Positions 2,964-64,000 of a stretch of DNA of 64,000 nt are shown here, piece after piece. Below the pieces are notes generated by a model. The model ran no database searches and was not told the origin of the DNA. It saw nothing but the letters and a program-made list of their open reading frames with translations. Source of the stretch: Begonia masoniana (Eukaryota; Streptophyta; Magnoliopsida; Cucurbitales; Begoniaceae); contig CM039508.1 in NCBI GenBank assembly GCA_022432975.1, positions 25,307,999 to 25,371,998 of the forward strand. Reading direction: 5' to 3'. The translations under genes were made by a program, and so were the position numbers. The first letter of the stretch is position 1. Every line of letters begins with the position of its first letter.

Positions 2964-2972
2964 TGCTGAAGG

Positions 2973-9546: not shown

Positions 9547-9555
9547 TAATATTTT

Positions 9556-12992: not shown

Positions 12993-12999
12993 CCAATCC

Positions 13000-14846: not shown

Positions 14847-14935
14847 TCTTTACGATATGAAAATAGGAAACATCAAATATTAGCCACATGAAAATCAAAT
14901 TTCGAACAAATACAAAACACAACAAACAGCATTGG

Positions 14936-15659: not shown

Positions 15660-15670
15660 TAATATTTTTG

Positions 15671-16639: not shown

Positions 16640-17788
16640 AACATGCTCTGCCAAATCACTCATCGTTGTAACAAGAAGGACGATCTCAAGGGAATCCGAC
16701 AAACTGGGCACTGTCGTCACAAGGTGCTCCGGCTCAAGCACGACGACCGCCAACTGAGTATTTGTCTATTGAATTTCGAAATCAAATGTGTAAAGAGCAG
16801 TTTGAGCAGGATATGTCAAATCACTCAGTTATTGATTCGAAGACCGTCAATTTTAAAGGTTGGGAGCAATTGGAGATCGAGAAGATGTTCGACAGAATCG
16901 CCCTACATGAGGTGTACTAATTGAGGAGCGATAGCTACAAGCAAATTGTTAACTTGTTTTATACGAACTTGACCTCTACCGGGATGCCAGGATGTTTAAA
17001 AACGTACATCCTTAGTACAAATATTGTTATACTTCCATATATGGTTAATGAATTGCTCGGGTTTGCCGGAGAAGGGATTGAGGTGGAGAAATACTACCAT
17101 GCTTCCCAAGATTGTGATTTTTTCAGATAGACCGAGGGACTAAAGTTCTTTAGGAAATTCATCAGAATCCCAACATCGTAGAGTTCGTGAAGCCAAGATC
17201 TAGGGATTTGAATGTCAGAGCTCGGGTTATTAACACTTTGATAACTCACACCATTTTACCTCGGGATGAACAAAGAGATCTCGTGAGCTGCATGGATCTC
17301 TATATAATGGAGAAGTTGTATAATGGGAAGATGTTCGATCCTGCCTTCGTGATTTTAGGTCACATGCATGAGATCGGTCGGACATGTAATAAGAATATGT
17401 CCTACGGCACGTTGATTCAAAAGATCATCGAGGTAGCTAGCATTTAACTACCGATTAGAGAGCAGATGAGAGCACAGAGATCAGGCGATGTATTTTATAG
17501 GCTTCATTTGATTCAGATGAGCCTAGTTGAAGTCAACGGGATTTGGGTGTTCAAGGGAGATTAGGGAGCCTCCACCTCTGTAGATTTTGCTATGGAAGAC
17601 GCTACCGCGCAACCATTGTCCCCCACACGGCTAGTAGGTGGGACAGGATGGAGCATAGACTAGAGTTCCTTGTAGACAAAGTCGAGTAGCTCATCGTGTC
17701 ACAAAGAGAGCTGGCTAAGTCCCACAAAGTGCTGAGAAAAACCATCATGGATTGGATGAATCGAGATAACAACGATGGCTCAAAGTAG
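16640..17788 (+). pseudogene. MULE2 ORF2 relative (plant transposon protein family), decayed
   Basis: Related to the MULE1 minus-strand gene. The equivalent of exon 2 begins after an AG at about 16858 with 'MFDRIALHEVY', then 'LLGFAGEGIEVEKYYHA', 'ARVINTLITHTILPRDEQRD' and 'FDPAFVILGHMHEI'. Stops and frame changes occur at about 16918, 17128, 17185 and 17445. The C-terminal end retains a helical, charged stretch up to a stop at 17786-17788, without the acidic tail of MULE1. The upstream portion (16640-16850) may be exon 1 but is unrecognisable. Confidence 0.75.
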
Positions 17789-29043: not shown

Positions 29044-30628
29044 AAAAACTTGAATAAACTCCTCCTCCGACCCATTTTACAAACTTAGAGTAAAGAACTT
29101 TTGATGTTCTAGATTCAGTTTTAAGAAGTTGGAATCGAATCAAATCGAATTGACAATCTTGACTCGGTTCGTTTTCATGTTTCAACCAAGTAAGTCTCGC
29201 TCTATCAATAGTGATTATTTACCTAAATTTTATTCATATATTCACCATGTGTATATTTTGAGATATAAAATAATAAAAAATCAAACAAAATGTTAAAATT
29301 GTAATAAACAACATTGCTAGAAAGACTAGTCAACCTCAAATAATCGAAGGATTTATGTGACTAATGCTATTCAAAACATTAATTTATGTTATTCTGTCTA
29401 ATTATATAAAATCAGATTGACAACGAAACATCATTTTGTGAACCATACTTCATTTAATTACCTAGAATCCAATATTCTCGAGTGATACCTTTTAAACGTT
29501 CTGCTTTCTAGCGATGATTTCTATATATTTTCAAGTTCATTTTTGTGATAGAAGTCGGTTCTTTCACATGAGACAATTTCGATATCTAATGTTTGATTTA
29601 TAGACTAGAATTGAGATAGGAGAGGGTGATTTTGCTTGCCTGTGGCAACGAATGATGTTATACTACATTTTAAATTTTACTAGTATTATAATTTCATACC
29701 CGCTATAAGTATATTTTTGTAATATTCTATGTATTTATATTTATTGTCCCGACGACGGACGTAACCACACCGTCCCCACCCTTGCTTGAGAGGTAGTAGA
29801 ATGGGATAGGCATGAGGTCTAAAAGAATATAAAAGTGTACCACAGACCATTGTTTGAAAAAAAGTTTAATGATGTTGTTCATAAATAAGATTTGTCATCT
29901 AACACTATTACAAGACTTTTAGAATAAGATTAGAAAATAAAGTCTAGCTAGTTTAATAATACAAACCAAAATAAGAGAAAAAATTAAAATTTTAATAAAA
30001 GATTTTTCAAGTATAAGGAAAGATTTATTAAAGAAAGATGCTGTCATTGAAAGAACAAAAAAAAAATGTTTTTTAATAAAAAGTTACAAGTAGAAGTAAA
30101 AAAATATGTTTGAAGTGTACATTGAAAACCAACAAAGTAAAAAACATGAAGTAGTATAACCAATAAGTAGTTGGGAGCGCCGGAAGCCACAGCGCATGAG
30201 CACTAATTCGTATCATTTGAACACAAAACAAAAATATTACAATAATTCAATAGAAATCAGGAAGGCAAAGTGATGTTTGTTTTTTTTTTTTAATGTTTGA
30301 TTGACATGAGAATGGAGTGGTGGTGGTCCTCTTGGCAATGTTGGGAAGAAACTAGAAAGACCACCAAATCAAGAGGTAGCATAACATAACAAAAACATAG
30401 AGTTAAGCAAATACAACTCACACACACATAATTGATAAGGAAATTTAATAATTTAAAAACATTAGAAATACATAAATGTACATATTCCATTACTGTATTG
30501 CTTCCCTTATTTGATCCCCACCTCTTCAAAGTTTTCATCATTTTTGAATTTGCACCACCCAACCTCCTCAAATCCAACAAAAAAAGCTAAAAAAGAAACC
30601 AGCTTTCCAGATGGAATCAGTGAGTTGC

Positions 30629-30631
<3 letters not shown>
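29044..30631. other. AT-rich intergenic region upstream of CIPK12
   Basis: No gene supported. It holds oligo-A/T runs and the presumed promoter of the CIPK12-like gene in its last few hundred bases. The minus frame at 30580-30290 is not convincing. Confidence 0.4.

Positions 30632-30662
<31 letters not shown>
30632..30662 (+). repeat. (GA)n microsatellite in the CIPK12 leader
   Basis: About 15 GA dinucleotides lie 55-86 bp before the CIPK12 start codon. GA/CT repeats in leaders are common in plant genes and can bind GAGA-binding BBR/BPC proteins; a role here is inference. They create the false N-terminal extension with Glu-Arg repeats when the frame is read from 30511. Confidence 0.85.
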
Positions 30663-30667
<5 letters not shown>

Positions 30668-30717
30668 CCTTTGTCAGAACGTCACCGCCTTTCTCAAAGC
30701 TTCAATTTTGGTCGTTA

Positions 30718-32121
30718 ATGGCGGAACCCAATGTCAAGAGTAGCAGCGAGAGCAAGAAGAAGGATTACCCGGCTCTTCTTTTGGGCAGATTCGAGATCGG
30801 GAAGCTCCTCGGCCATGGTACCTTCGCCAAGGTCTACCACGCTAGAAACGTCAGATCGAACGAAAGCGTCGCTATAAAAGTTCTCGATAAGGAGAAGATT
30901 CTGAAGGGTGGCCTTATTGCTCATATCAAGCGGGAGATCTCGATTCTCCGCCGCGTTCGCCACCCTAATATAGTTCAGCTGATCGAGGTTATGGCGACTA
31001 AGGCCAAGATCTTCTTCGTTATGGAGTATGTTCGGGGTGGAGAGCTCTTTAAAAAGGTCGCTAAAGGTCGGTTAAAAGAAGAAGTTGCTCGGAAATATTT
31101 TCAGCAACTGATCTCCGCCGTCGGATTCTGCCACGCCCGCGGTGTTTATCACCGGGATCTTAAGCCGGAGAATCTTTTACTCGATGAGAATGGAGATCTC
31201 AAAGTCTCCGATTTTGGGTTGAGCGCAGTCTCCGATCAGATTCGGCAGGACGGTTTGTTTCACACGTTTTGTGGGACGCCAGCGTATGTTGCGCCGGAGG
31301 TTTTGGCCAGAAAAGGGTACGAAGCGGCGAAGGTGGATATTTGGTCTTGTGGGGTTATACTTTTTGTTCTTATGGCTGGCTATTTACCATTTCACGATCA
31401 AAATGTAATGGTGATGTACAAGAAAATTTACAAGGGTGAGTTTCGATGTCCGAGATGGTTCTCGCCGGAGCTAATTCGGCTCCTTTCACGTCTTCTGGAT
31501 ACAAATCCGGAGACCCGAATCACCATTCCTGAAATTATGGAGAACAAATGGTTCAAGAAAGGATTTAAGCATATAAAATTTTATATAGAAGATGATAAGC
31601 TTTGTAGTGTTCGAGATGAGATCGATGATGTTGATTCACTATCTGAAAAATCAATGTCGGAGTCAGAGACGGAAATGGAGCCTAGAAGGAGGATTACTTC
31701 GTTGCCTAGGCCGGCCAGTTTGAACGCATTTGACATCATATCATTTTCGCCCGGTTTTGATCTTTCGGGATTGTTCGAAGATGGGGGAGAAGAATCAAGG
31801 TTCATCTCTGGTGCCCCTGTGTCGAAAATTATATCAAAATTAGAGGAAATTGCTCAGTTGGTGAGCTTCACTGTGAGGAAGAAGGATTGCAGAGTGAGGT
31901 TGGAGGGGTCTAGAGAAGGCATAAAAGGTCCATTGACAATTGCAGCTGAGATTTTCGAATTAACTCCATCATTAGTTGTGGTGGAAGTTAAAAAGAAAGG
32001 TGGAGATAATGCAGAATATGAACACTTCTGCAACAGTGAATTGAAACCCGGATTGCAGAATTTGATGCTGGAAGTGAAGGAATCTGCAGCTTCTTCACAC
32101 TTACCTTCAGATACTGAATAA
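30718..32121 (+). CDS. CIPK12: CBL-interacting protein kinase, CIPK12-like (SnRK3 family), intronless
   Basis: A calcium-signalling Ser/Thr kinase: calcineurin-B-like (CBL) calcium sensors bind and activate it, usually at membranes, where it phosphorylates transport proteins. The frame gives 467 residues, typical of the family. The kinase domain (~24-280) has [10 protein letters not shown], Lys54 (VAIKVL), catalytic Asp147 (YHRDLKPEN), DFG Asp165 and an activation loop ending at 'APE'. The NAF motif that binds CBLs starts at residue 336 ([12 protein letters not shown]), and the PPI domain for PP2C phosphatases follows. The C-terminus is LPSDTE. Absence of introns fits the intron-poor CIPK clade that includes CIPK12. 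I chose the ATG at 30718 over the in-frame 30511 because the extension translates a GA repeat. CIPK18/19 are close relatives, so orthology is probable, not certain. Confidence 0.95.
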
Positions 32122-32598: not shown

Positions 32599-35500
32599 GT
32601 TATGATGTCTGCAACGTTGTTTTATGCATAGTAACTATTATATTGGTAGATATAGTATTATTCTACCTGTAAGGTAGTGCAATTGAAGTGAGCAATTACA
32701 CTAGATAAATAATTTCATTGCTAGTGTTATGCTAGTAAAAACTAGATGAGATTAACATGTTGATGTGCTACAAAGGAGGTCTCTCTCAAGGATCCAAGTT
32801 TTGGAGTTTACTAACTTTCTTGTTTATTTTTTTGGCTTATTCTTCATTATTAGCTTGAAGGATATTAATGGTGAAATCCACAAAGATGAGCCAAGCATTC
32901 GGATCAGGGTGGTCTTGGTATAAAACCATAGCCAAATGGGCACTAACTTGCAACACACCCTTCGGACAAACTTATGACATGGACTTTTTTGTTCAATTGG
33001 AGGAAGGGGATGACTTTAAGTACAAGGATAAGCCCAAGCATCAAAATCAATAGAGGATGAACTCGGCCATCAACCTTCAAGCCCAAGCATCAAGTAATTA
33101 ATTCTCATGGAAGAAGCTCATGGCCGATTCTAGATGATCATCATGTCTAGCTTGTGTTCGCTTCATTTTAAGTCTAGAGGTGGAATTTATTTATGTTATA
33201 TTTTGTAATTGATGATGGGGATCATCTTAGAGAGTGAAAGGAACAGATGGCTTGGAGAAGCCAAAAAGGTGTTGGCTTACCTCGTTTGGCCAAACACACT
33301 TTTCCTTCTTTTGTTTCCCTCAAAGTTGGTATTTAAACTATCATTAGCTCCTTATGGCAGCAGCTATTGACATTCAAATATTGTTGTTGAAGTTCTCTTC
33401 TCAACGTTGGAGTTTATCCCCTTGCCACCTCTCCTTGGTGAATAACATCAAAGTGATTGTGTGAAGATTGCCTTCATCTCTTGTGAGGATAGGTGAATTT
33501 CTCTTAAAAGCTACTCATTTCTCTTCTTTGTTTTATTAAGAATAAGCTCAAGCAAATTAATAGAAACTCTCATCTCCACCGTTGAAGAATCATCATTTGC
33601 CAAGTTCCACAAGTGCTATTTTGTTACTGTTTCATTCTTAGTCCAGCAGTCAGCACTCCAATGTCACTTTTCATCCAAAACACTTCAACCCTCCTTTTGT
33701 GGAGACATATTTTCTCACATACAACTTCATTCTGCCTTAAAAATGACATCCGTCTCACTTCAAAGTTCAAACAAGCGACTTCTACCTTTCCAAAGGAGAC
33801 TCGTTGTTCTTGACTAGAGCAGTATTCCAAGATTTGAGCAACCTCCACCACTTTCATTCTATCTCTCGATCCACAAAGCTTTTGACCCCGCTATTTGAAG
33901 GGCCTTTACTCCACCTTTGGAAGTAACTTTTGTCCAAAAATCAGCTCCAAAGCCCAAGGGACCAGTGAGTTATGTCGTTTTGAAGTTGCTGCTCATGTTG
34001 CCAAAATAGATAAAATCCGATGCAGTTTGGTCTATAATATGAAAAATATTCGTGAAATCAATCATATGTATTTTCTCTGAACTAAAGGTTTTCATTGGTG
34101 ATCTCTTTTCGTTTTTTGTGTTAGTTTTCAAAATCATATTTTTTGTTGTCCAAATAATGTTGGAATTTTTCATATTGTAGACCAAACTGCATTGGATTTT
34201 ATCTGTTTTGGCAACACGAGCAGCAACTTCAAAATGACATACGTCGCTGGTCCCTTGGGCTTTGGAGCTGATTTTTGGACAAAAGCTACTTCCAAAAGTA
34301 GAGTAAAAGCCCTTCAAATAGCGGTGCCAAAAGCTTTGCGGATCGAGAGATAGAATGAAAGTGGTGGAGGTCGCTTGAAGCTCGGAATACTGCTCTAGTC
34401 AAGAACAACGAGTCTCCTTTGGAAAGGTAGAAGTCGCTCGTTTGAACTTTGAAGTAAGACAGATGTCATTTTTAAGGAAGAATGAAGTTGTATGTGAGAA
34501 AGGATGTCTCCACAAAAGGAGGGTTGAAGTGTTTTGGATGAAAAGTTATTGACATTGGAGTGCTGACTGCTAGACTAAGAATGAAACAACAACAAAATAG
34601 CACTTGTGGAACTTGGCAAATGATGATTCTTCAACGGTGGAGAAGAGAGTTTCGACTAATTTTCTTGAGCTTATTCTTAATAAAACAAGAAGAGAAATGA
34701 GTAGCTTTTAAGAGAAATTCCCCTATCCTCACTAAAGATGGAGGCAATCTTCACACAATCACTTTGAGGAGAGGTGGCAAGGGGATAAACTCCAACATTG
34801 AGAAGAGAACTTCAACAACAATATTTGAATGTCAATAACTGCCATAATGAGCTAATGATAGTTTAAACACCATACTTTGAGGGAATTTAGGGTTACAAAA
34901 CATTAGAAGAGTTTTTATCCTAAAAAACAAAAGAAGGAAAAGTGTGTTTGGCCAAACGAGGTAAGCCAACACCTTTTTGGCTTCTCCAAAGCCATCTGTT
35001 CCTTTCACCCTCTAAGATGATCCCTATCATCAATTACAAAATAGTACATAAATAAATTCCACCACTAGACTTAATATGAAGCGAACACAAGGTGGACATA
35101 ATGATCTTCTAAAATCGGCCATGAGCTTCCTCCATGAGAATTAATGACTTGATGCTTGGACTTGAAGGTTGACGGCCGAGTTCATCCTTCATTGATTTTG
35201 ATGCTTGGGCTTATCCTTGTACTTAAAGTCAACTCCTTCCTCCAATTGAACAAAAAAGTCCATGTCATAAGTTTGTCCCAAGGGTGTGTTGCAAGTTAGT
35301 GCCCATTTGGCTCGGGTTTTGTACTAAGACCACCGTGATCCAAATGCTTGGCTCATCTTTGTGGATTTCACCATTAATATCCTTCAAGCTAATAATGAAG
35401 AATAAACCAAAAAAATAAACAAGAAAGTTAGTAAACTTCAAAGCTCGGATTCTTGAGAGAGACCTCCTTCGTAGCACATCATCATGTTAATCTCATCTAG

Positions 35501-35647
35501 TTTTTACTAGGATAACACTAGCAACGAAATTATATCTAGTGTAATTGCTCACTTCAATTGCACTACCTTATAGGTAGAATAATACTATATCTACTTATAT
35601 GTATATAATACTTACTATGCATAAAACAACGTTGCAGACATCATAAC
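32599..35647. repeat. Three-kilobase near-symmetrical inverted repeat (giant fold-back)
   Basis: The left arm 32599 to about 34047 and right arm about 34157 to 35647 are reverse complements with scattered substitutions and small indels; the loop is about 110 bp. Examples: 'gttatgatgtctgcaacg' at 32599 pairs with its complement ending at 35647, and 'cacaagtgctattttgtt' at 33608 pairs with its complement near 34600. Paired frames (33895-34080 plus, 34317-33970 minus) give nearly the same peptide from the two arms, a by-product of the symmetry. The arms contain LTR-like sequence but no primer site or domain I recognise. It may be two head-to-head copies of one repeat. The outer flanks showed no convincing target duplication. 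Confidence 0.85.
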
Positions 35648-42541: not shown

Positions 42542-42803
42542 ATGAACCCTCTCGACTGCGACATTGATGGATTCTGGGTCGTTAAGAGGTAGTTTATGTT
42601 TTAAAAAACTTTCTAATTCCTAAGTCATTTGTGATTTCCTCTATATATTATCTATTTTTGTTGATTTCAGATAATTTCTCCAATAAAGATTGTAATCCTC
42701 ATATAGAAGGGGATTCAGATTCTGGACCTCTATATGGTGAACTTCATACATTCGATTGCTACTTAGAGTAGGACTAGTGTGAAAGTTGACTGTTACATAA
42801 AGC
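42542..42803 (+). pseudogene. MULE3 transposase, 5' part, cut by the SIRE insertion
   Basis: An ATG at 42542 begins a short exon (~50 bp), followed by GT and, at about 42670, an AG before an acidic stretch ('EGDSDSGPLYGELHTFD'). It then meets a stop before the SIRE target site AAAGC at 42799-42803. The acidic N-terminus is like that of the MULE1 transposase. The gene resumes at 53598. Confidence 0.5.
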
Positions 42804-44527
42804 TATTAGCTTAAAATACGTTTTAAGTAATTATGTTTTTTATGATTAAGTTTAATATGAAATTGTGATATGATAAGTGTAATTCAATTTGAACTGAATA
42901 AATGAATTATTGTGTTATTTGCGTTTTTCTGGAAATGCCCTTCGTAAAGGGTATTAAGTTTTCTAATGAATTTTTGGTTAAGTGTTTTAAGTCCACAGTC
43001 AATCATCCATGTGAAAGAAGATAGAAATAATCGTAGTAATCTGTGGAAAACAATCGTCCAAAGTGTCACGTGAGAATCAGGTGACTTCAGCCAGATTCAA
43101 TCGTCCAAAGCTCCACGTGAAATTCAGGTGGCTTTAAATCAGAAACGTTCCACGCGAGAGTTAAAATGTCACGTGAAAGTCAGGTGGCTTTAAATCGATT
43201 CAAACGTCCACCGTCAAGACAAACACAGTCGTCCACGCTCGAAGGAAAGACTGTCGTCCTCCTTCAAAGGAAAGACTATCGTCCTCCTTCAAAGAAAAGA
43301 CTGTCGTCCACATTCAAAGAAAAGACACAGTCGTCCACGTTCGAAGGAGACGCCGTCAGTCACAATCAAAGTTTACATCCACCGCTAGCTAAACGACAAA
43401 GTATACATCTGCCGATGGTAGAGTCTTCCTAAGACATCCACCGCTAGCTAAACGACAAAGTCTTCCAAAGTTTACATCCACCGATAGCTAAACGACAAAG
43501 TCTTCCAAAGCTTACATCCACCGATAGCTAAACGACAAAAACCACATCCACCGCTGGTTGTTCAAAGGCTACATCCACCGCTGCTTGTTCAAAGGCGACA
43601 TCCACCGCCAGCTAATCGACAAAATCAACATCCACCGCTGGAATTTCAAAGACAACATCCACCGCTGGTTTTCAAAGACAACGTCTACCGGTGAACAGTA
43701 ACTTCTGCCTGCATAACAAAGAATTACATCTACATGCAGAAGAAAGTGGCGTTGACCACCTACATCCACCGGTGAACAGTATCTTCCGCCAGAAATTTAA
43801 AAAGACCGCGAAGCGATAGCGATACTCATCCAGAGCCCTAATTCCAGATCATTAATGGCGAAGAACGAAAGCGACTCCAGAACGCAACGACTAGCTATCT
43901 ATTTACGGATGTTTCTCCAACGACTATTTTTTTAATACTCAGATGAGGAACACTCCAGAACTGATGCCGATAACAGACAGAGTATATAAGGGAAAAAGAA
44001 GCTCGGGAGAAAGAACTTTTTGCTGAATTTATCTTCGAATCCTTACGAGCAAATACTCAGCACTACTCTGTATTTTCTGATGTACCTCTCTCTCTGCCCT
44101 AGAACTTGAGATTTATCTCTTTGAGAGAGTGTAGCATTTGCGCTCAATATTCTTCTTTGTAAAATTGTAAAAGGCTGTGATTGACGCCCGTGAAGATCAA
44201 TCAAAGTGTAAAGGCAGTGGATTGACGCCCGTGAAGTTCAATCCAGAGTTGTAAGGCTGTAGATCGACGCCCGGAAAGTTCGATCTTGTTTTCTCGTGAG
44301 GAGAAGAAAAGAATCTTCAAGGGGGAGCCTTGGAGCGTGGACGTAGGCAAGTTTGGCCAAACCACGTTAAAAACTACGATGTCAAATTTCTCTCTATCTT
44401 TTACTTTGTTTATTGCCTGTGTGTTTGTTGTTAATTTGGTAATTGCATGGAAGAGAGAAAATGTTTAGATTAAGTTAATAATTTTTAATAAGTCTAATTC
44501 ACCCCCCCTCTTAGACAAGATCCTACA
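42804..44527 (+). repeat. 5' LTR of the SIRE element
   Basis: 1,724 bp, starting TATTAGC (TG decayed to TA; the 3' LTR has TGTTAGC) and ending CCTACA, followed two bases later by the primer site. The middle (43365-43770) is a minisatellite of 'acatccaccgctagctaaacgacaaag'-like units. A TATA-like 'gtatataaggg' at 43982-43992 is the probable promoter, about 540 bp before the LTR end. Confidence 0.92.
43365..43770. repeat. Minisatellite in the SIRE LTR (catccaccg units)
   Basis: About ten units of 30-45 bp start 'acatccaccg', several continuing with '(c/a)tagctaaacgacaaag'. The same array is at 52440-52840 in the 3' LTR, and a related one with 'ccgctcgctagacgacaaag' is in the older solo LTR at 39705-39935. 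Confidence 0.8.
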
Positions 44528-44529
44528 AT

Positions 44530-44541
44530 TGGTATCAGAGC
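44530..44541 (+). other. Primer-binding site of the SIRE element (tRNA-iMet)
   Basis: tggtatcagagc, two bases after the LTR end; perfect match to the plant initiator tRNA complement. Confidence 0.93.
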
Positions 44542-44785
44542 GAGGTTTAACATTGTCTAAGTTGCATTTTTGAAATATTTTGTGATATATCTGAAATGGC
44601 ATTTAACACTACACTCGTCGAGGGCCAATCAATTACTAGACCTTCATTCTTTGATGGGATTGACTATGTTTATTGGAAGTCTAGGATGAGAATTTTTGTT
44701 CAGGCTATGGATTATGAACTGTGGAATATTATAGAAAATGATCCATTTAAAGCCATGAAAACAGAGAATGAAATTAGAGTTCCTA

Positions 44786-47366
44786 TGTCACGACCCTAGT
44801 ACTGTACCCAATTTTCCATACGATCAATTTTTTTTTTTTTTTTTTTAACTTTTAACTTTGACTGTACTTAAGGCGAAATCTCAATCGAAATCGAAGTCGG
44901 AATTGAAATCGAAGTTCGTTTAGTAAATCGTTTAAAACAAATACTAAAACAATTAAAACTTAAAACAATTAAATCAATTAAAACTATTAACTAATTAAAA
45001 TAAAACTTTTTTTTTTTTTTAACATGGCGATCAGTCGCCCAAAAAGGGGCGACTGATCGCCACAATTTGTGGCGATCAGTCGCCACGCTCTCTGGATTTC
45101 TCCAGAGAGCGGCGACCAGTAACGCTTGGCAATCGCCTCTCAGCGATTGCCAACAGGGAGAGGCGATTGATCGCCTCCCAGAGGCAATCAATCGCCATGC
45201 TCTCTGGAATTTCTCCAGAGAGCACAGCTCCCCCTTCCTTCATTTTTCTTCCTTCATTTCCTCACACCATGCATTTCACATTTACACCTCAACCATTATT
45301 TAACATGCACTACTCAATTCCACAACAACTCATCCAACAACACGCATCACCCGACATTAATCAATACTCAACCCAACTCTAACTTAGCCTATACACTTCT
45401 AAATTTCACGAAAACTGACCGCATGGATCGCTAAAAAACCGAGCCAATCCATACAGTGTAAATCACCTAAAATCATCAAATAAAACCCAATCAAATCCTC
45501 AAAACAAACATCGAACATAACCACAGAATTTACTAAAACATCACCAAAGACATACATTGCTAAATCATTCAAAATAGCGCTACTTCAAACCTACATCCAT
45601 TGTACGATTTCCTAAATAGTAAACCTAACTATACACCCTAAAATCCATCACCTTTCTAACCAACAAAAACAACTCACATCATTCGCCACAAAATAGTTCG
45701 GGGCACACCATTGGATCATCAAGCCAAGCCAAAACACACCCCGTCGCCACGAGCACCATCCGTCAACCACCTATTCCTTGACATCGAGAGAACTCTCACT
45801 TTCACACCTGTCACCTACATCATACAATATAAACATTAAGCCTAATGCTTAGTAAGGGAATGTACTATACATGACATATGCATGAATGCATGATTCTTTT
45901 CATAAAACATGTTCATTTACTTATTCTTATTCTTTTTCATTTTCGTTAACATGGATTAAGGTGGGGATCTTGTCAGAGAGTAGGCCAAGTGCGTGTACAT
46001 AGTCCTTTCGGCCGTTTTCATGTTCCATCGCATGGAAGTGACAATAGTTTTGTTGTTATGGCCATACATCCCAACCCACACTGAACCGTTACCTTTCTTT
46101 TACATACATCATACATGAAACGTTTCATATGACATTTGAGAAAACATGATGCATGAGGAATCTATGTATAACATATCATCAAGACAAATCATCGAACAAT
46201 TCACAACATACATAGATATACATTATTCTTAACGAACTTCACAAACAACTAATGACTAACATCCTATGCTACCCGACTCAGTAAACCCCACAATCAGAAA
46301 ATCATCATCAAAACACAAAAGCCTAACGTTGACACGATGTAGGGCCTTAAGGGTCGGAAACCTAACACCCACTTACCTGGCGTCCGTAGCAAGCCGTGTA
46401 CCGTCCGTAAAGTCGTCTCCACCTAAAGCATTTCACAAGTAGTGGCATTAAAATCGATCCTAAATAAACGAATTCTAAACTTAAACCAAACTCCTAACTA
46501 AGGAAATTATTTCCTAAAACTCCATTTTCTCTACTCGGGCATTTCATCGAGCATGTGGTGCTCACAAATTCTTAAACTCCATTAATGGTTTCTCTCAATT
46601 CTCCTACAATCCCAAAACTAACCTAACAATCACCCAAACACTATAAATCCATTCAATCTACCTAAATAACAACAAATGCATCATCAATGGGCATTAATAC
46701 CGTTAAACTATCGATTTACAACAAAACTACGCTTTCTCAACCCTAAATCGAAAACGCCCTAACCAAAATCAACCCCAAAAATCAAAACCAAACACCTAGG
46801 GTAGTAGGGTCTTACCTAGAACGTCGAATGAGGAAGAAAACGGAAAGAAAACCGAACGCCAGAGAGGAGTCGTTGATCGACCGTGGAGAATCGGTAAGGG
46901 AGATGAGAGAAATCGTGAGGGAGAGGCGAGGGAGCTCCCTGGCGTAGGAGGAGAAATGAGAGAAGGGCGAGGGGCATTTTTCTTTTTATTAAAATTAACC
47001 TAACAAATTACTTAAATGCCCCTTTTCTCTAACTTCTTATTTAATTCATTATTTAACCCAACGATTTAGTTTCTCTGAAATTTCTTATTTCTCCCAATAA
47101 TCCAATTTAATTCTAGGGTTCTAACGAAACACTTCGTTCGCAAATCAGACTTAGTTTACTATTTTTACGACTTAAAACACTATAGGCGGAAAACCGTCAC
47201 TCAGTGTTACACTATCGATTTGGATTCTAAAAATTTTACTTATTCTTCTAAAATCTCCATAAATTCCTAGGGTTCTAATAAAACCTCCCGCTCACCAAAC
47301 GGACCTTATATTTCTTATTTACGAAAGTACCCCTAGAGCGAAAACCCGAAAAACCCAGGTGTTACA
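44786..47366 (-). repeat. Solo LTR (TGTAACACC family) inserted in SIRE gag
   Basis: A 2,581-bp segment with TG...CA ends on the minus strand (starts TGTAACACCTGGG, ends GGGTCGTGACA) and a perfect 5-bp target duplication TCCTA (44781-44785 and 47367-47371). It shares the ends and internal blocks (the 'taagcctaatgcttagtaagg' region near 45850) with the solo LTR at 18678-21135, in opposite orientation. A GC-rich hairpin cluster lies at 45026-45220. Small frames inside it (44991-45382) are by-products. It post-dates the SIRE insertion. Confidence 0.85.
45026..45220. repeat. GC-rich hairpin cluster in the solo LTR (GGCGATCAGTCGCC)
   Basis: 45026-45061 is a perfect hairpin, GGCGATCAGTCGCCC and its complement around a 6-base loop. 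A further inverted copy follows at 45071-45084, then 'gctctctgga..tccagagagc' twice (45088-45110 and 45198-45222) and 'ggcgattgatcgcc' variants between. Confidence 0.85.
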
Positions 47367-48705
47367 TCCTAAGGCCCCTCACGAATTAACAGACTCCGAT
47401 AAGAAAAATTTGAGTTTGAATGCTAAGGCAATTAACACGCTATAGTGTGCCTTAAATAGAGATGAATTTAATAGGGTACAAGGATGTGATAGTGCATATG
47501 AGATATGGAGATTGCTTGAGATAACTCATGAAGGAACTAATCAAGTTAAAGAGAGTAAAATGAGTATGTTAGTCCATGAGTACGAATTATTCACTATGGA
47601 AAAAGATGAAACCATTAACTCTATGTTTACACGATTTACTAATATTACTAATGGTTTAAAAGCGCTTGGTAAAATTTATTCAGGTGAAGAATTAGTAAGA
47701 AAGATCCTTCGGTGCCTGCCAAGTGCCTGGCAACCGAAAGTGACTGCCATACTAGAAGCTCGAGATCTCAAGGTATTCAAACTTGAAGAACTCATTGGCT
47801 CTCTCATGACACATGAGATCACCATGAGAGCTAATGAGAATGAGGATCTTAAAGACAAGGGGATCACCAAAAGAAAGGACATTGCACTCAAAGCCTCCTC
47901 CAGTAAACAAGATGAATCTGAACAAGAAGAGGATGATGAGGAGATTGCTTTCATAACAAGAAGGTTCAACAGATTTCTCCAACGGAAAAGATTGAATGAG
48001 AGGATATTCTCAAAGGAAGAAAATCCTCAAAAGGATAAGGAGATTACCTACTACGAATGTGGGAAGCCTGGACATATCAAGGCCGAGTGTCCACAAGCAA
48101 AGGAGAATCCCAAGCAATTTAAGAAGAGGGCCATGAAAGCTACATGGGATGATAGTGAGAGTGACACTTCCTCAGAAGATGAGGAAGTAGCCAACCTCTG
48201 CTTCATGGCACATGAAAACAAGGTTAGTGTCTCCTCTAGTGATAGTGAAACTGAGGATGGAGACTTAATTGATACTTTTAATGATCTAGTAAAGAAATTT
48301 GGGATGCTAAAAACTAAATACAATCTGCTGAAAAAGAACAATGCAGGTTTAGTAGAAAAGCATGCAAAAGAAGTTAACTCACATGAAAAGGAGATAGCTA
48401 ATCTTAAAAGTAAAAATGATGATTTGAATTATATCGTGCTTAAGTTCACAAATGGTACCAAGAACTTAAACATGCTGATAGAAAATCAGAGAGCTACTTT
48501 TGATAAAGCAGGTTTAGGTTATGATAAGTTTAATAAAAAGAAAGCATTTAAGAACTTTTTTGTTAAACCAACTACTTGTCATGCTTGTAATGAGATAGGA
48601 CACAAATCATATGAATGTCCTTTGAAATCAAATAAGAAATCAGGTAATAAATTACAGTGGGTTCCTAAAGGAACCAAAACTAACTCTAGGACCCAAAAAG
48701 TTTAG

Positions 48706-49420
48706 GTACCAAAGAAGGCTGCATGATTGTTTTCAGGTTGATTGTTCTCCCTGGGAAAATCAATGATATCTCGACAATGGTTGTTCGAGACACATGACGG
48801 GAGACTCAACAAGTTTTCTGTTGTCAATAGAAAGAAAGGAAATGTCCTTTTTGGTAAAAACCAAAAGGATAAAATCGTTGGTATTGGCAACAAAGGTAAC
48901 CCTGCCAACCCTACTATTGAAATCATGCTTTGCTGGTAGAAGGGTTAAAGCATAATCTCTAGGCATAAGTCAATTATGTGTTTAAAGAGATTTCGAATAG
49001 CAATATTCTGTGTAAAGGAGATAGGAAAGAAAATGGTTATATTTTTTATCTGGATGATTTTTTAGTATGTTGATAAAAATTGTTTTGTTATAATCTCTTC
49101 CAATGACAGTTGGACTTGGCTTAGAAGGCTAGGTCACATAGGAATGGACACCTTAGCTAAGATTACTGAGGAGAAGTTAGTTAGAGGAATTTCATCAATT
49201 TACAAAAATCCCTTACAGCATTCTAGAACCAAGCTCACCGTGGTTAGATTTCATTTGATTAGAGATCATGTTCAAAGAGGTGATTTTTTTTTTTTGATTT
49301 TGTGAACTCTGTTGATTAATTAGCAAAAATATTTACAAATCTTTTAGATGAGAAATCCTTCTGTGATATTAGAATAAGGTAAGGTCTCATTAGGATTGGA
49401 AAAAGTGAGGTTAGTCCTTT
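48706..49420 (+). pseudogene. SIRE pol traces around a large deletion
   Basis: Short pieces survive: a protease-type stretch with 'SRHMTGD' sense near 48785 followed in another frame by 'KDKIVGIGNKGNP'; a pre-integrase 'WLRRLGHIGMDTLAKI' at about 49110-49160; and, about 70 bp later, a segment resembling the RNase H end ('VRFHLIRDHVQRGDF', ~49240-49285). All of the integrase core and reverse transcriptase are missing. Confidence 0.7.
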
Positions 49421-49702
49421 TATCCGTTTTCCTTCCGTCTGTTTGACAATGGACGCTGTCAATGGACTTTGATGATGGACACTGTCAATGGACTTTGTCC
49501 ATGGATGTTGTCAATAGTATCTGTCATTTGACTGTCATCTTCTATGTTTTAACACCCGTCTCACTATTTCAGAAGCCCTATCTTTGAACTTCCCGCGCTC
49601 TGTCGACTCGTCTAACGCTTCCTATTTCTCTCTGCTTTCTAACTCTGACTCTTCATTTCTCTCAACTCCTCTCGAGCTCTGAAATCCCTCTCAGAAAACC
49701 TA

Positions 49703-51613
49703 ATGGCATCTTCTTCCCACGCACCTCAAGTCTTCTCGACGAAGAAGCAAAAGCTTTCTCAAGGTGAGAATGCTTAATCGACCTCAGACCCTCCATCTCT
49801 CTTTTGGCTGAGTCACGAGTTCCTCAACCATGCTGCTTTTAAAAGGTATTACGAAGATTTTGAATTCAAGCCAATTATTCGTTCCAGAGGGATTAGTTTT
49901 GAGGGTCTAATTGGTCTCGATCTAGAAGTTCCCTTAACAAGGTTGGGGCTGATAGGACTATTTGTGTCTGAAGAAGCTTTTTATGAAACCCTCATTTGGA
50001 TGTTCTATGCAAACCGTGAACATTCTAACAAACCTCTAGTTCTTAGGAGTTACGTCCATGGACGCCACATTGAGCTCACACAGGACTTAATGCATCAAAT
50101 CTTACGCTGTGAGTTCTTAAACGGTATCCGCAGGGTTTATGAGGCCACAACAACTCCGTCTTTTCTTACAAAACCTGCTGGCAAGGAACTACTTCAATGG
50201 ATTGCCAAGGATCCCGCTAATGCACCTCTTAAGTTGAAAAGCAAAGACTTGATCCCTAGGGCCAGAGTTGTTCACCAGATGATTCATTACAACATTCTGC
50301 CTGTAGAAGGACATAGAGACCATGTAAGTGGCATGGATCTCTTTCTGCTAAACAAATTCTTTAAGGTTGAACCATTCCACATAGGTTTTATCATATTGAA
50401 CCGAACGTTGCAAGTTGTTACCTGTGGTTCAAATTCCTTACCTTACAATCTTCTGCTCATGAGGATTTTTAATCGGTTTGGGGTTCAATATCCTGCATCT
50501 GACAAGCCCGTACCCTTGAAAAATTCTGATTTCTTCTTTGCCTCCACCTTATCACGAATGAGCATATCCAAGAATGATCAAGGAGTGTTCATTGCAAGGG
50601 AGGGATGAAGAGGTCTACAAAGTGAGGTGGCTGTTGTACAAGTTGGTTCCCCAAGAGCTGCTCGAAGGCGTCCCACCAGGAGGTTAATTCTTCAAGATGA
50701 AGAAGAAGTTACAAGTGTGCAAGATGACACTCTTATTCCTGAGCTTGCACCTCCTCCAGTCCTTCTCCTTCCAGCTCAAGAGGAGGTCACTCATGAGCAA
50801 TTCAGTGAACCTGAACCTCCTACAGTCCAAGTTGTTGAACCTTGCACATCTCATCCCGTCAGTCCAACTCCAGCTCCTTCTCCTGCTCGTATTCCTCCTC
50901 AATCCAACCGTCCTTCTACCTCTCACATGAAGAATACTATTTCTGAAGATATTCAGGATGAGCTCAGGGCTAGCATTGCAAGCCTAGGTATCGGTCTCGA
51001 ATCTTTCCAAACTCAATATAACTCCCACCGTACTCAATTTGAGGCCCTTGTCCTGACCAGACTTGATCATCTTGAGACTTCCAATAAAGATTTGCTCAAT
51101 CAGACCAAAATGGACTTGAGCAAGGACCTTGACTTAGTCTTCGATCAATTGACTTCCCGGATGAATAGACTTGAAGACTCTCTCTCAAGGACCCTTCAGT
51201 CTATACAGTCTAATATTCAAACTCTACAACCAGAACAGTCTAGCCCTCTCTGTTTCTCAGAGACTTGTTCTGCCGACCTCCTCCCTCCAGTCGTCAGACC
51301 AGAGGTTGGCGAGGAAGTGAACTTCATGCCTTTGAATATCCAGGATGCTGAGCTTGAGTTCATTAATCATTTTGGTTCCCATGTCACCGAGTCCTATTCT
51401 GAGCTCCCACTTCCAATGGCTGCACTTCCAGCTGGTCCACCAGTAGAGCCACCACCATGTCTGGATTTGGTTGTGTATCGAGGACCATTTCTGCCTTCTG
51501 CTCCTTCTGCTTCTACTCTCGATCTTGAACCACTGAAGGTTCCTGATGTCAACTATTCAGTGCCTCCATCAATCATAAAGGAGTTGTGGAAGCGCATTAT
51601 GGATTTAGATTAA
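49703..51613 (+). pseudogene. SIRE envelope-like ORF, homologous to the MULE ORF2 proteins
   Basis: One frame of ~637 codons from the ATG at 49703, with in-frame stops at 49775-49777 (TAA) and 50606-50608 (TGA). The N-terminal domain (to about codon 300) has 'GLIGLFVSEEAFYETLIWMF', 'ELTQDLMHQILRC', 'ARVVHQMIHYNILPVEGHRD', 'FHIGFIILNRT' and 'LPYNLLLMRIFNRFGVQYP', matching the MULE1 ORF2 domain block by block. A proline-rich linker, a coiled coil (~codons 410-510, 'LDLVFDQLTSRMNRLEDSLS') and a Pro/Leu-rich C-terminus follow. Such ORFs downstream of pol in SIRE elements are usually called envelope-like. I see no signal peptide or membrane span to support an envelope role. Confidence 0.85.
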
Positions 51614-51896
51614 ATAGAAGAAATTTTTTTTGGAAACAATTTTTTTCGATTCACTAGTTACACAAATTTTTTGTTTGGTACTTTGATTTTCAAATTTCTT
51701 CAATATCCAAATATTTTGTCGATGACTGCTTTTTACTGTTTCTTTTTTATAATGTCAAAGGGGGAGAGAGGGATTGTGAATGATAAACATGCATAGAGTA
51801 AGGGGGAGTTAGAAAAGTTAGGAGATTATTCTAAGAACATTATGGGGTGAATAAAGTTAATCATTTGATATTTGTCATCATCAAAAAGGGAGAGAT
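51614..51896 (+). other. Purine-rich 3' untranslated part of the SIRE element
   Basis: Non-coding; contains three polypurine stretches ('aaagggggagagaggg' near 51758, 'agtaagggggag' near 51798, 'aaaaagggagaga' at 51883-51895), the last directly before the LTR start and therefore the likely plus-strand primer. Confidence 0.7.
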
Positions 51897-53597
51897 TGTT
51901 AGCTTAAAATACGTTTTAAGTAATTATGTTTTTAATGATTAAGTTTAATATGAAATTGTGATCTGATAAGTGTAATTCAATTTGAACTGAATAAATGAAT
52001 TATTGTGTTATTTGCGTTTTTCTGGAAATGCCCTTCGTAAAGGGTATTAAGTTTTCTAATGAATTTTTGGTTAAGTGTTTTAAGTCCACAGTCAATCGTC
52101 CATGTGAAAGAAGATAGAAATAATCGTAGTAATCTGTGGAAAACAATCGTCCAAAGTGTCACGTGAGAATCAGGTGACTTCAGCCAGATTCAATCGTCCA
52201 AAGCTCCACGTGAAAGTCAGGTGGCTTTAGATCAGAAACGTTCCACGCGAGAGTTAAAATGTCACGTGAAAGTCAGGTGGCTTTAAATCGATTCAAACGT
52301 CCACCGTCAAGACAAACACAGTTGTCCACGCTCGAAGGAAAGACTGTAGTCCTCCTTCAAAGGAAAGACTGTCGTCCACGTTCAAAGGAAAGACACAGTC
52401 GTCCACGTTAGAAGGAGACGCTGTCGTTCACAATCAAAGTTTACATCCACCGCTAGCTAAACGACAAAGTATACATCTGCCGATGGCAGAGTCTTCCTAA
52501 GACATCCACCGCTAGCTAAACGACAAAGTCTTCCAAAGTTTACATCCACCGATAGCTAAACGACAAAGTCTTCCAAAGCTTACATCCACCGATAGCTAAA
52601 CGACAAAAACCACATCCACCGCTGGTTGTTCAAAGGCTACATCCACCGCTGCTTGTTCAAAGGCGACATCCACCGCCAGCTAATCGACAAAATCAACATC
52701 CACCGCTGGAATTTCAAAGACAACATCCACCGCTGGTTTTCAAAGACAACGTCTACCGGTGAACAGTAACTTCTGCCTGCATAACAAAGAATTACATCTA
52801 CATGCAGAAGAAAGTGGCGTTGACCACCTACATCCACCGGTGAACAGTATCTTCCGCCAGAAATTTAAAAAGACCGCGAAGCGATAGCGATACTCATCCA
52901 GAGCCCTAATTCCAGATCATTAATGGCGAAGAACGAAAGCGACTCCAGAACGCAACGACTAGCTATCTATTTACGGATGTTTCTCCAACGACTATTTTTT
53001 TAATACTCAGATGAGGAACACTCCAGAACTGATGCCGATAACAGACAGAGTATATAAGGGAAAAAGAAGCTCGGGAGAAAGAACTTTTTGCTGAATTTAT
53101 CTTCGAATCCTTACGAGCAAATACTCAGCACTACTCTGTATTTTCTGATGTACCTCTCTCTCTGCCCTAGAACTTGAGATTTATCTCTTTGAGAGAGTGT
53201 AGCATTTGCGCTCAATATTCTTCTTTGTAAAATTGTAAAAGGCTGTGATTGACGCCCGTGAAGATCAATCAAAGTGTAAAGGCAGTGGATTGACGCCCGT
53301 GAAGTTCAATCCAGAGTTGTAAGGCTGTAGATCGACGCCCGGAAAGTTCGATCTTGTTTTCTCGTGAGGAGAAGAAAAGAATCTTCAAGGGGGAGCCTTG
53401 GAGCGTGGACGTAGGCAAGTTTGGCCGAACCACGTTAAAAACTACGGTGTCAAATTTCTCTCTATCTTTTACTTTGTTTATTGCCTGTGTGTTTGCTGTT
53501 AATTTGGTAATTGCATAGAAGAGAGAAAAGGTTTAGATTAAGTTAATAATTTTTAATAAGTCTAATTCACCCCCCTCTTAGACAATACGATCCTACA
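51897..53597 (+). repeat. 3' LTR of the SIRE element
   Basis: 1,701 bp, starting TGTTAGC and ending CCTACA, followed by the AAAGC target copy. It is near-identical to the 5' LTR apart from one missing ~28-bp unit at about 52350 and a few substitutions. Confidence 0.92.
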
Positions 53598-54930
53598 AAA
53601 GCAACTTCACATGGTCTTTTGTTGGGAAAAAAATATAGTTCTTTGAAAGAAATTAAAGAAGAAATAGTTAAGTATGCATTGAAGAATGGGTATGGTGTGA
53701 AATTCGACATAAGTGATTCTCAGCGATTGACGACTGTGTGTCAGGAGGGTTGTAAGTGGCGCATGCATGCTTCGAAGATGCAGTGCAAAGCTACATTTCA
53801 AATAAAAAGTCGCAATGAGGAGCACACATGTTCAAGAAAGATGGAAAGCAGACATACTTCAGCCAAATGGGTGGCAAACCAATACTTGGACAGGTTCAAG
53901 AGTCAGACTAAATGGGAAGTCTTGTCTATTACTGAGACAGTTAGAAAAGGTTTCAATGTCAACATTTCACCTAGTTTTGCCAGAAAAGCAAGAAATGAAG
54001 CCAAAAAAATTAACGAATGAAATGGAGACAAACAATACAACAAATATGGTCGTATGGAGAAAAAATTCATAGATCGAATCCAGGTAGCACCTTGGTCGTT
54101 AGCCATTTTCGAAAGTTAGTACATGTGCATGGATACTTGCAAGAGAGGTTTGCTTCAATGTAGTAGACTTATAATCTGTTTGGACGGCTGTCATCTGAAA
54201 GACTGGTTTCCATGACAATTATTAATCGCCATCAACATCGATGGTAATGATGAAATTTATCTCATTGCTATTGCAGTGGTAGAAGCAAAATGCTACCACT
54301 CATTGCTGTGGTTTTTGCGCGTATTAAAGATAGACATAGACACTGAGTCGGGACATGGTTGAACATTTATTTCAGATCGGTAGAAAGTACGATACATTTT
54401 TGGTTGTTTTGTATATTCGTATTTTGTATAATGTTTGTTCTAATTAAACATTTTATCCAATTTCAGGGGTTGGTGGGCGTTGTGGCAGATGTATTGTCAT
54501 TGGCTGAACACAGATTCTGCCTCAGACATCTATATGCCAATTTCAAAAAAGAGGTTCGGAGGAAGCTTTACAGAGACACAATGAGGAATGCATCAAGGGC
54601 TACCACAACTGCTAAATTTGAGATAGAAATGAAGAATTTATACTCTATTCACCAGGCAGCACACGCATTTCTCCGAGACTTTAATCCAAAATGTTGGGCA
54701 TCACATGCATTCACTTCAATTCCAAAGTGCGATTTACGGCTGAACAATTTGAGCGAGTCTTTCAATGCACTCATTATGTCTGTCAAGGACAAACAAATTT
54801 TGACGATGTTCGAGATGATTAGAAAGAACATGATGACTATGATTGTAAAAAGGCGTAAAAAAATGGTTGAGTCAACATAATGTCTATGTCCCCAAATAAA
54901 GAGGAAGCTTGCGAAGACCACGTGTTTGAT
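53598..54930 (+). pseudogene. MULE3 transposase, 3' part, decayed and C-terminally truncated
   Basis: Resumes after the SIRE insertion with 'KKYSSLKEIKEEIVKYA' and 'CKWRMHAS' (DNA-binding part, open to 54020). It continues with stops through 'LIICLDGCHLKDW' (about 54170) and 'FISDR' (about 54366), then after an intron-like gap with AG at 54471 has 'AEHRFCLRHLYANFKKE' and 'CDLRLNNLSESFNALIMS' to a stop at 54880. The SWIM finger and zinc knuckle are absent: the sequence passes directly into the opposing gene relic, so 500-600 bp were deleted. Confidence 0.85.
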
Positions 54931-55916
54931 ACCTGAGCCTACTTTCAACCATCTCAGTGGCTTCTTCTACTTCTTCTCTTCCATATTCTTCACAAAGCAT
55001 CTGAATTGTTGCATGTTTGTCGAGTATCACTGATTACGTCGTAACAATATTTTGAATTTGTCGAGCCATCCCTTCAATAGTCGACACAAGACTGTTGAAC
55101 CTGTCCTCAAATACTGACATAATACGAGGTGACTATGAAAGGCTGAGGTGGAGCATCCTCCATCTCCACATCGTCAGTGCTAGCTACGGGCTAATGAGCT
55201 GATAAGATAAAAGCTTGTTGATCTTCCTTGAACACCCATTTACCTCTGACTTCAACAATTCTCATCCAACTTAAGGTGCAACTATCAAATATATCTCATG
55301 ACTTTTCTTTTCTCACATGCTCGTTAGGCGGTACTGCAATCCCAAAATACTCAATAATCTTTTGAATCAAGGTGTTATATGACAAATGTTTTGTGTTGCT
55401 TATGTTAATGTTAGCCATGTGACTCAAAATTACAAATCCCGGGTTTAATTTCTTCCCACTGTATAACTTCTCCATTATGTAGAGATTCGTGCAGCTCACG
55501 AGATCTCTATGTCCGTCACGAGGTAGAATCGTGTGAGATATGACATGGTGAATAACTCGAGCTTTGATATTTAAATCATTTGATTTGGGCTTGAAAAACT
55601 CGTCAATGTCATGATTACAAAGTATTTTTTGAAGCAACTGAAGTCCTTCCCCTTTTCTCACAAACTCAGCATTTCAAAAATTATGGTAATATTCATAATC
55701 ACTATCCTCATCCATCGAGAAACCGATCAATTCATTCACAATGTTTGAAGTTACCTTGATTTCTTTACCGAGAATGTATGACTTTAGCACAACATTAAGA
55801 CGCAGGCCAAAAATCATATTAGCGTAAAATAACTGCACAAGTCTCTCACAACTGTTACCTCCTAGCATGCAAAAACTAGCTAATCCAATTTGCTCAAATA
55901 ACTTCTTAATTCTCAA
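54931..55916 (-). pseudogene. MULE3 ORF2 relative, decayed
   Basis: Minus-strand fragments from 55916: 'FEQIGLASFCMLGGNSCERL' and 'VTSNIVNELIGFSMDED', then after a frame break at about 55672 'ARVIHHVISHTILPRDGHRD', 'LNPGFVILSHMANI' and 'LSYNTLIQKIIEYFGIAVPP' (to 55296). Beyond, poorly preserved C-terminal sequence runs to about 54931. It is the same family and order as MULE1 ORF2. Breaks are few compared with the MULE2 copy. Confidence 0.8.
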
Positions 55917-56418
55917 AGATGTAAAACTTGAAAAGATAATTCATCTTGAATGAATAAATGAACAATTTTTCATATCGGCTTCGTTAGTGTTCAGAAATGC
56001 CGGAGATCTAAATTCACGAAAAAATACTCAGTTGATGCTCAACGGACTTGAGTCAAAGCATGTTGTGATGGATTCGTTGTGAAGCCACCAAATTATTTCA
56101 TATAAGAGATTTTCTAATACAAATTTTTGACACTTTTGTCTATGAATATTATTTTCTTAATCAATTTAGTTATTTAGTCTGTTGTCATTTTAAAAATCTC
56201 ACCTTTTGATTGTTCGTAAAACTAACATTAACTATGGTTTCAATACTTAGTAAACATTAATCTTCGTTCCCACGATACTTTACTTGCATTATATCGCTTG
56301 TTGAGTCTGGACAACATACAGTTGCGTTGCTGCATACTACTTTTATTTAAAAAACACAGCAATACAGAAATAGTTAATCTGATCAGGTGTTCCATAGACA
56401 GGCTTACGATTTCCTTCT
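55917..56418. other. Boundary between MULE3 and the protease gene
   Basis: Holds the presumed right end of MULE3 (not definable) and the 3' UTR of the minus-strand protease gene. No other gene. Confidence 0.35.
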
Positions 56419-63584: not shown

Positions 63585-64000
63585 CGCTAATGGTGGCGAT
63601 GTGGTCTCATCCATCGGCACTGACTGAGAGGTGGATGTCCTCTGATTGCTCTTCAGCACCTAAGCGTCATCGACTTCAACGATGTCCATCCGTATCAAAT
63701 GAATCATGTCAAATACATTGGTGGATCTAGGGGGTATTCTCTGCTCGCCAACCGGTAGCCGAATCCCAGCTCGCTCGATGATTTTTATAATCAGTGTCCC
63801 GTACGAGAGATTCGTCTTGGATGCCCGCCCGACCTCACAAATGTGACTTAAAATCAAGAAGACATGGTCAAAAGGTTTCCCTTTGCACAACTTCTCCATG
63901 ACATAGAGGTCCATGCAGTTCACGAGATTTCGATGTCCCTCTCGTGGCAAAAGAGTGTGGGCTAGCATGTTGTGAAGAACCCGACCTCTAACATTCAAAT
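63125..64000 (-). pseudogene. MULE4 ORF2 relative, partial (runs off the window)
   Basis: Reads leftward from the edge: 'MNVRGRVLHNMLAHTLLPRE', 'GHRNLVNCMDLYVMEKLCKG', 'FDHVFLILSHICEV' and 'LSYGTLIIKIIERAGIRLPV' (63998-63660), the core of the family domain and well preserved. The C-terminal part (63660-63240) carries a His/Arg/Ser/Gln-rich repeat region, interrupted by a G32 tract on plus, and a charged end. The N-terminal half is outside the window. Whether this copy is functional cannot be judged. Confidence 0.8.
63553..63584 (+). repeat. Homopolymer of 32 guanines
   Basis: An uninterrupted G32 run on the plus strand (C on the coding strand of the ORF2 relative). It would form G-quadruplexes and is unreliable to sequence, so its exact length is uncertain. 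It lies in the variable linker part of the gene relic. Confidence 0.9.

Follow-up and report, generated by a model that had tools for sequence, protein, structure and literature searches.

The locus considered here raises the question of whether the "envelope-like" open reading frame (ORF) of a plant retrotransposon encodes an envelope at all. It lies in a stretch of 64,000 nucleotides of Begonia masoniana (contig CM039508.1, positions 25,307,999 to 25,371,998; hereafter the window), which contains a SIRE-type copia element and a Mutator-like element (MULE), MULE1. An earlier note had proposed that the "envelope-like" ORF of the former and the second ORF (ORF2) of the latter belong to the same protein family. 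On sequence evidence, the two are homologous members of the Pfam family PF20167 (Transposase_32).

Homology of the SIRE and MULE1 proteins

The two genes comprise the following parts:

49703 to 49774, plus strand: N-terminal piece of the SIRE "envelope-like" ORF; 24 amino acids with the basic stretch KKQK, ended by a TAA stop at 49775 to 49777
49778 to 50605, plus strand: Transposase_32 domain piece of the SIRE ORF; 276 amino acids, PF20167 68.7 bits, ended by a TGA stop at 50606 to 50608
50609 to 51610, plus strand: C-terminal piece of the SIRE ORF; 334 codons, a proline-rich linker followed by a heptad-like region, with only weak Pfam matches to helical families, under the cut-off
14438 to 14846, minus strand: predicted exon 1 of MULE1 ORF2; basic motif KRQK, proline-rich, start of the homology
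13321 to 14357, minus strand: predicted exon 2 of MULE1 ORF2; PF20167 65.8 bits, heptad-like stretch, acidic tail

The SIRE domain piece aligns with MULE1 ORF2 over 230 columns with 2 gaps and 28% identity (BLASTP, 103 bits, E 3e-30 for this single comparison). The five motif blocks on which the earlier note was based are present in both proteins, in the same order and in a nearly gapless alignment. Chance resemblance is ruled out by shuffling: the real local score is 257, and 300 shuffles gave a mean of 33 (standard deviation 4.5) and a maximum of 47. The profile-profile comparison suggested in the note, run with seven SIRE against six MULE sequences, returned a probability of 99.8% (E 6e-28). 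The homology begins 5' of the first of these motifs, at SIRE residue 5 in the comparison with a MULE copy at 16747 and at residue 12 in the comparison with a profile of ten gypsy- and hAT-type sequences. That profile matches those of MULE and SIRE with probabilities of 87.0% (E 4e-6) and 91.7% (E 8e-7), respectively (single-comparison values).

Both proteins of the window exceed the curated PF20167 cut-off of 45 bits, as do a second SIRE lineage (70.1 bits), other MULE copies (56.9–67.0 bits), the gypsy types (138–156 bits) and the hAT type (151.8 bits); all 24 proteins of the alignment match the family. Four residues are invariant in the 24 sequences (F45, A131, G172 and L195, numbered in the MULE1 frame), and six more are nearly so (R43, Y46, A47, N48, L127 and P144). 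Pfam describes the family as a "putative plant transposon protein", in a line that gives neither carriers nor function. Searches of a protein database and of viral contigs found no relatives; the sole match in the PDB (E 1.9) was taken as chance.

The stretch from 49703 to 51613, presented in the note as one ORF, is broken by the two in-frame stops into pieces of 24, 276 and 334 codons. The region matched to MULE1 ORF2 falls within the 276-codon piece.

The carriers in the window

The retrotransposon and the remains of its coding region are as follows:

42804 to 53597, plus strand: SIRE-type copia element that carries the gene in question; long terminal repeats (LTRs) at 42804 to 44527 and 51897 to 53597
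47446 to 48705, plus strand: copia gag; PF14223 91 bits and a zinc knuckle, the 5' part severed by a nested insertion
49066 to 49305, plus strand: pol remnant, a gag_pre-integrs piece; PF13976 32.5 bits

The copia gag, the LTR pair (97.1% identity over 1726 aligned columns, with 21 mismatches and 29 gap columns), a Met-tRNA-type primer site past the 5' LTR (TGGTATCAGAGC) and the target-site duplication AAAGC (42799–42803 and 53598–53602) identify a copia LTR element. Its putative placement in the Sirevirus lineage is based on the extra 3' ORF and on purine tracts recognized by eye at about 51757, 51800 and 51883; pol is missing from this copy, and its relative L073 has RVT_2. Excerpts of PMC2829016 name the repetition of polypurine tracts ahead of the 3' LTR as a Sirevirus feature. 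Reverse transcriptase (RT) and RNase H are absent between the pol remnant and the accessory ORF, because the gap there is only about 400 bases long. The insertion in gag (44786–47366, 2.58 kb, TGTCAC...GTTACA, flanked by TCCTA on each side) looks like a solo LTR.

The DNA transposon is delimited by terminal inverted repeats and encodes a transposase:

9556 to 15659, no strand assigned: MULE1; terminal inverted repeats with arms 97% complementary
10256 to 12644, plus strand: mudrA-like transposase of MULE1, comprising two open pieces; PF03108, PF10551 and PF04434 (SWIM)

The mudrA-type transposase, the inverted repeats and a target-site duplication within the range of 8–11 bp (9 bp, TAATATTTT, at 9547–9555 and 15660–15668) characterize MULE1 as a MULE. 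ORF2 runs from 14846 to 13321 on the minus strand, convergent with the transposase, and encodes 481 amino acids with a predicted intron of 80 nt.

Three further copies of the gene are decayed:

55206 to 56015, minus strand: decayed Transposase_32 gene; tblastn E 6e-61 against MULE1 ORF2 and 3e-27 against the SIRE piece
16747 to 17561, plus strand: decayed Transposase_32 gene from another MULE, in a reading that lacks the intron
63663 to 63998, minus strand: decayed Transposase_32 piece that ends at the window edge; PF20167 36.6 bits, under the cut-off

Pieces of these three decayed MULE copies reach 33–40 bits, below the 45-bit cut-off. The SIRE copy itself (42799–53602 with its duplication) has inserted into a second MULE, within its transposase gene, which is adjoined by the decayed Transposase_32 gene at 55206 to 56015; when the flanks of the SIRE copy are joined, they give one continuous transposase match across the empty site.

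Carriers in the genome

In the 795-Mb genome, to which all carrier counts refer, the family is carried as an extra gene by copia/SIRE, gypsy/Athila-type, MULE and hAT elements. The PF20167 search scored the best 150 of 7812 first-look candidates, all of them above the cut-off, a number that is not a copy number; the searches with the SIRE piece and with MULE1 ORF2 scored 140 of 8228 and 114 of 9366 candidates, respectively.

At 28 of 30 SIRE-type loci, the 1.5 kb upstream contain copia gag and/or RT/RNase H in the same orientation: RT/RNase H is present at 13, SIRE gag at 18, both at 3 and neither at 2 (L033 and L057). At 15 of the 30, gag stands alone and ends 1.1–1.2 kb ahead of the domain, as in the window copy. 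At the three loci of this set (L031–L060) that have both, the stretch of 1.5 kb contains gag together with an RNase H tail. These 1.5-kb upstream stretches suggest SIRE sub-lineages that lack pol but have retained gag and the accessory gene, a pattern that agrees with a benefit of the gene to its carrier, and also with shared descent or drift. In a second SIRE lineage (L073), a gap of about 180 nt separates an RVT_2 frame from the Transposase_32 frame downstream of it.

Among 53 MULE1 ORF2 copies with at least 96% identity, 39 have a convergent transposase match (at least 88%) at a distance of 1.3–3.7 kb, which for 26 of them is 1.7–1.82 kb; 196 shifted controls gave a maximum of 1 and 3 in total. 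Among the scored matches, the transposase is absent near the remaining 14. In two short stretches probed for a second MULE family, a transposase was found in L077 and not in L076. One MULE1 ORF2 copy (L071, 900–1400) contains a long in-frame repeat of LGAD units in its C-terminal part.

At 12 of the 30 best PF20167 loci, the 1.5 kb upstream contain the end of an Athila-type polyprotein in the same orientation, and a gypsy polyprotein lies upstream in sense at four of six loci read over 10 kb (L061, L063, L064 and L066). L063 and L064 have RVT_1, RNase H and rve domains, the scanned piece of L061 has RNase H and rve, and L066 was recognized by tblastn. These gypsy carriers probably belong to Athila, a lineage name that follows excerpts of PMC11728184.

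The two other loci read over 10 kb add hAT to the carriers noticed in the earlier note. L062 has a hAT transposase (PF05699 96 bits and PF14372 42.7 bits; zf-BED 20.3 bits against a cut-off of 20.6) with a 501-residue PF20167 frame downstream on the same strand, and L065 retains only a hAT remnant, 85% identical to L062 over 180 bp; this evidence rules out an assignment of the L062-type copies to gypsy. When the best 150 of 3093 candidates scored with the hAT transposase end were compared with the 150 PF20167 hits, the transposase was located upstream on the same strand at 25 of the latter, with 1.7–3.2 kb between the two starts. No other arrangement occurred within 6 kb, and 196 shifted controls gave a maximum of 1 and 15 in total. 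A right end, ...CTCGTTTAACATCTCTA, is common to 9 of 13 L062-type loci, each with a different 8-bp flank; L006 and L019 show single changes in it, and L009 is the same place as L062. A left end in the L062-type loci and a target-site duplication in L062 were looked for and not found.

Selection on the accessory gene

The ratios of nonsynonymous to synonymous substitution (dN/dS) were obtained by the Nei-Gojobori method with our own script. Among 435 SIRE pairs (51 of them outside every bin), the median is 0.13 at dS 0.8–1.5 (197 pairs), 0.33 at dS 0.4–0.6 (11 pairs), 0.27 at dS 0.2–0.4 (113 pairs) and 0.41 at dS 0.05–0.2 (63 pairs). MULE1 against five relatives, a comparison between MULE families, yields 0.15–0.22, and pairs among those five yield 0.21–0.48. 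The gypsy pairs L064/L066 and L005/L027 have ratios of 0.09 and 0.08, and the hAT-type pair L062/L065 has 0.23; two more pairs are saturated. By hand count, a frame of 356 amino acids is free of stops in 32 of 35 full-length MULE1 copies with at least 97% identity.

History of the gene

The claim of the earlier note that a class I and a class II element encode homologous accessory proteins is borne out by BLASTP, by the profiles and by the shared PF20167 domain, and homologous genes in both classes imply at least one exchange between them. The gene exchange envisaged in the note thus stands as one between element classes, but it is neither limited to MULE and SIRE, given that gypsy and hAT are also involved, nor an event within the window. 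The exchange between MULE and SIRE is old, because the mean identity of their proteins is 27%.

The phylogeny proposed as a guide to the direction of transfer separates MULE copies (support 98.8/96) from SIRE copies (more weakly, 67.2/77) and splits off the gypsy side (100/100), in a tree in which two decayed rows contain X; a direction was not obtained. The SIRE insertion in a MULE gene does not count as evidence of a recent swap, given the separate groups and their low mean identity. The hAT copies group together (100/97 and 100/95), next to the gypsy copy L026 (98.2/83 and 98.1/76) and amid gypsy copies. The transfer from gypsy to hAT suggested by this placement was not upheld, as approximately unbiased tests reject none of the alternatives: a gypsy group without hAT has p 0.326 and a larger gypsy group alone has p 0.546 (0.451 in a second test), the tree under the latter constraint being 0.18 log units better than that of the unconstrained search.

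The exons of MULE1 and L075 end at the same point. In the window copies at 17 kb and 55 kb, which branch earlier, the alignment continues across this point. The ORF2 intron is therefore probably a gain within MULEs and as such gives no clue to the direction of transfer.

Protein layout and the envelope question

A 19-residue window on the Kyte-Doolittle scale indicates a membrane segment at values of about 1.6. In a scan of this kind, made without a dedicated membrane predictor, the top window of each of 12 proteins or pieces lies between −0.63 and 1.59, so that no clear membrane segment was found. The N-termini are hydrophilic and basic, and the scan gave no sign of the transmembrane segment and signal peptide expected of an envelope. 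The heptad-like stretches of the C-terminal parts are not specific to envelopes. A motif [KR][KR]x[KR], which resembles a nuclear signal, is present close to the beginning of the protein in 9 of 10 N-termini (starts chosen by eye); it lies within the first 45 residues of 6 of 7 shuffle-tested proteins, and shuffles yield it at 3–9% per protein. The doubt that the earlier note cast on the "envelope" label is well placed, because the proteins have no clear membrane segment, a basic N-terminus and relatives in DNA transposons.

We consider it probable that these proteins form one plant transposon accessory family whose members are soluble nuclear proteins acting on the DNA or chromatin of their own element, and not membrane envelopes. 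The basic N-terminus would serve import into the nucleus, and the heptads of the C-terminal part would mediate self-association next to a conserved core. Its targets would then be the DNA or chromatin of the element family that encodes it, the likeliest roles being protection of this family from silencing or help with integration. The homology, the four carriers and the low dN/dS are observed, and the shared layout is read from the sequence; a nuclear location, self-association and a chromatin role are inferred, and an anti-silencing role is our leading guess among the possible activities. Excerpts of PMC11728184 report a nuclear signal predicted with a probability of 0.80 for a sunflower Athila ORF that matches PF20167 and is called related to Athila ORF-1 (PF03078).

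Several points weigh against this reading. The SIRE copy of the window cannot encode the whole protein. The basic motif is short, arises in shuffles at the rate given above and is absent from L064; the hydropathy of the SIRE protein L073 (1.59) is at the edge of the threshold. The heptad-like stretches of the C-terminal parts were scored without a control. AlphaFold models of both window proteins, built from window-only alignments, are too poor to use (mean predicted local distance difference test 43.9 and 43.4); their C-terminal halves agree in helix order, but both were built from the same eight sequences. They are rich in helices and lack the two blocks of antiparallel strands that, together with terminal helices at both ends, make up the AlphaFold 3 model of the sunflower ORF (PMC11728184, excerpts). 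The gypsy/hAT group is only 15–17% identical to SIRE and MULE, with profile probabilities of 87–92%. The carriers come from a single genome, the left end of the hAT copies was not found, and transmembrane and coiled-coil domains are attributed to Sirevirus env-like genes (PMC3414828, excerpts).

A wider claim can be advanced only tentatively: that copia, gypsy, MULE and hAT elements, though otherwise unrelated, have each acquired this nuclear family through repeated transfer between classes, as a solution to a problem they all share, such as escape from host silencing. The same caution applies to its corollary that some "envelope" genes of plant retroelements may encode this protein.

Two narrower forms of the favoured reading differ in the activity they assign to the protein. 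One is escape from silencing after the manner of VANC, an accessory protein of VANDAL MULEs with such activity (PMC5735166, excerpts), in which the protein would bind motifs of its own family and remove methylation. This is possible, though less likely than not: the SIRE sub-lineages seemingly without pol that have kept gag and the gene (gag only at 15 of 30 loci) are in keeping with it, but the VANC domains had no match in the 24 proteins scanned with filters that mostly drop weak matches. The other form, a helper of transposition or integration comparable to mudrB, or an aid to nuclear import of the transposition complex, is slightly less plausible still. The second MULE gene mudrB is apparently needed for integration (PMC6446971, excerpts), and the basic N-terminus fits a helper or import role; by contrast, copia, gypsy, MULE and hAT elements differ in transposition chemistry, so that a helper shared by all of them would need to act at some generic step.

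It is improbable that SIRE and Athila use the gene for a genuine envelope- or movement-like protein and that DNA transposons captured it for another use. The location 3' of pol is that of env, and both gypsy and copia elements are carriers; moreover, plant ORFs of this kind have been named env-like, and for those of Sireviruses transmembrane and coiled-coil domains are reported (PMC2829016, PMC1142308 and PMC3414828, in part). Envelope coding by plant retrotransposons is described as an open argument in PMC2829016. Nevertheless, representatives of all four carriers have a basic N-terminus and, by hydropathy scan only, no clear membrane segment, and MULEs make no particle, yet their dN/dS is low.

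Least probable by a further step is that the ORF is merely carried along without function in its new carriers, for example through the sequence capture known for MULEs (PMC5418596, excerpts): the window copies in SIRE and three MULEs are broken and dN/dS reaches 0.41 among the closest SIRE pairs, but it is 0.13–0.22 at dS of about 1 within the SIRE and MULE types, nearly all young MULE1 frames are open (32 of 35), and the gene keeps its place beside the transposase (39 of the 53 MULE1 ORF2 copies, 25 of the 150 PF20167 hits).

Comparison with known systems

The closest precedent is the plant mobile domain (PMD, PF10536). It is likewise an accessory domain of class I and class II plant elements, known from gypsy elements, MULEs and host genes and often antisense in MULEs (PMC5418596, PMC6446971 and PMC9289625, in excerpts; the frequent antisense position in PMC6446971). 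PMD had no match in the 24 proteins at E up to 10 under HMMER filters that drop most matches above about 0.1. In this genome, PMD was found at only two places (G000:C12:29512311 and G000:C8:50517583).

The SIRE gene shares its location, 3' of pol in a SIRE-type element, with the SIRE eORF-3'F or SIRE1 envelope-like ORF, but differs in that one such group is here linked to other element classes. A survey sorts the SIRE ORFs into 19 groups and raises the question of a function (PMC6317226). VANC, which carries DUF1985/DUF287 (PMC5735166, excerpts), and mudrB are likewise second genes of MULEs; no sequence match to either was seen among the 24 proteins scanned. Bdelloid rotifer retroelements also have extra ORFs common to unlike types, seemingly among retroelements only (PMC5408684, excerpts). 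Searches of open-licence papers gave no link of SIRE, MULE or hAT through the PF20167 family, and "envelope-like", Sirevirus and MULE occur together there in a single paper, on Pack-MULEs in another context.

Other elements in the window

Two further structures were observed. A copia element at 2750–7446, with repeats of about 150 bp that are 97% identical and two long open frames, is apparently young. At 32640–35600, a long inverted repeat in several pieces (93–100% complementary) lies beside a kinase-like frame (30466–32121) and could give rise to a hairpin RNA.

Significance

That MULE and hAT elements also carry this protein, and with low dN/dS, makes the envelope reading testable and, for this group, unlikely. 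The gene is small and mostly open in young MULE1 copies, and it allows functional work in a DNA transposon, independently of a retroelement.
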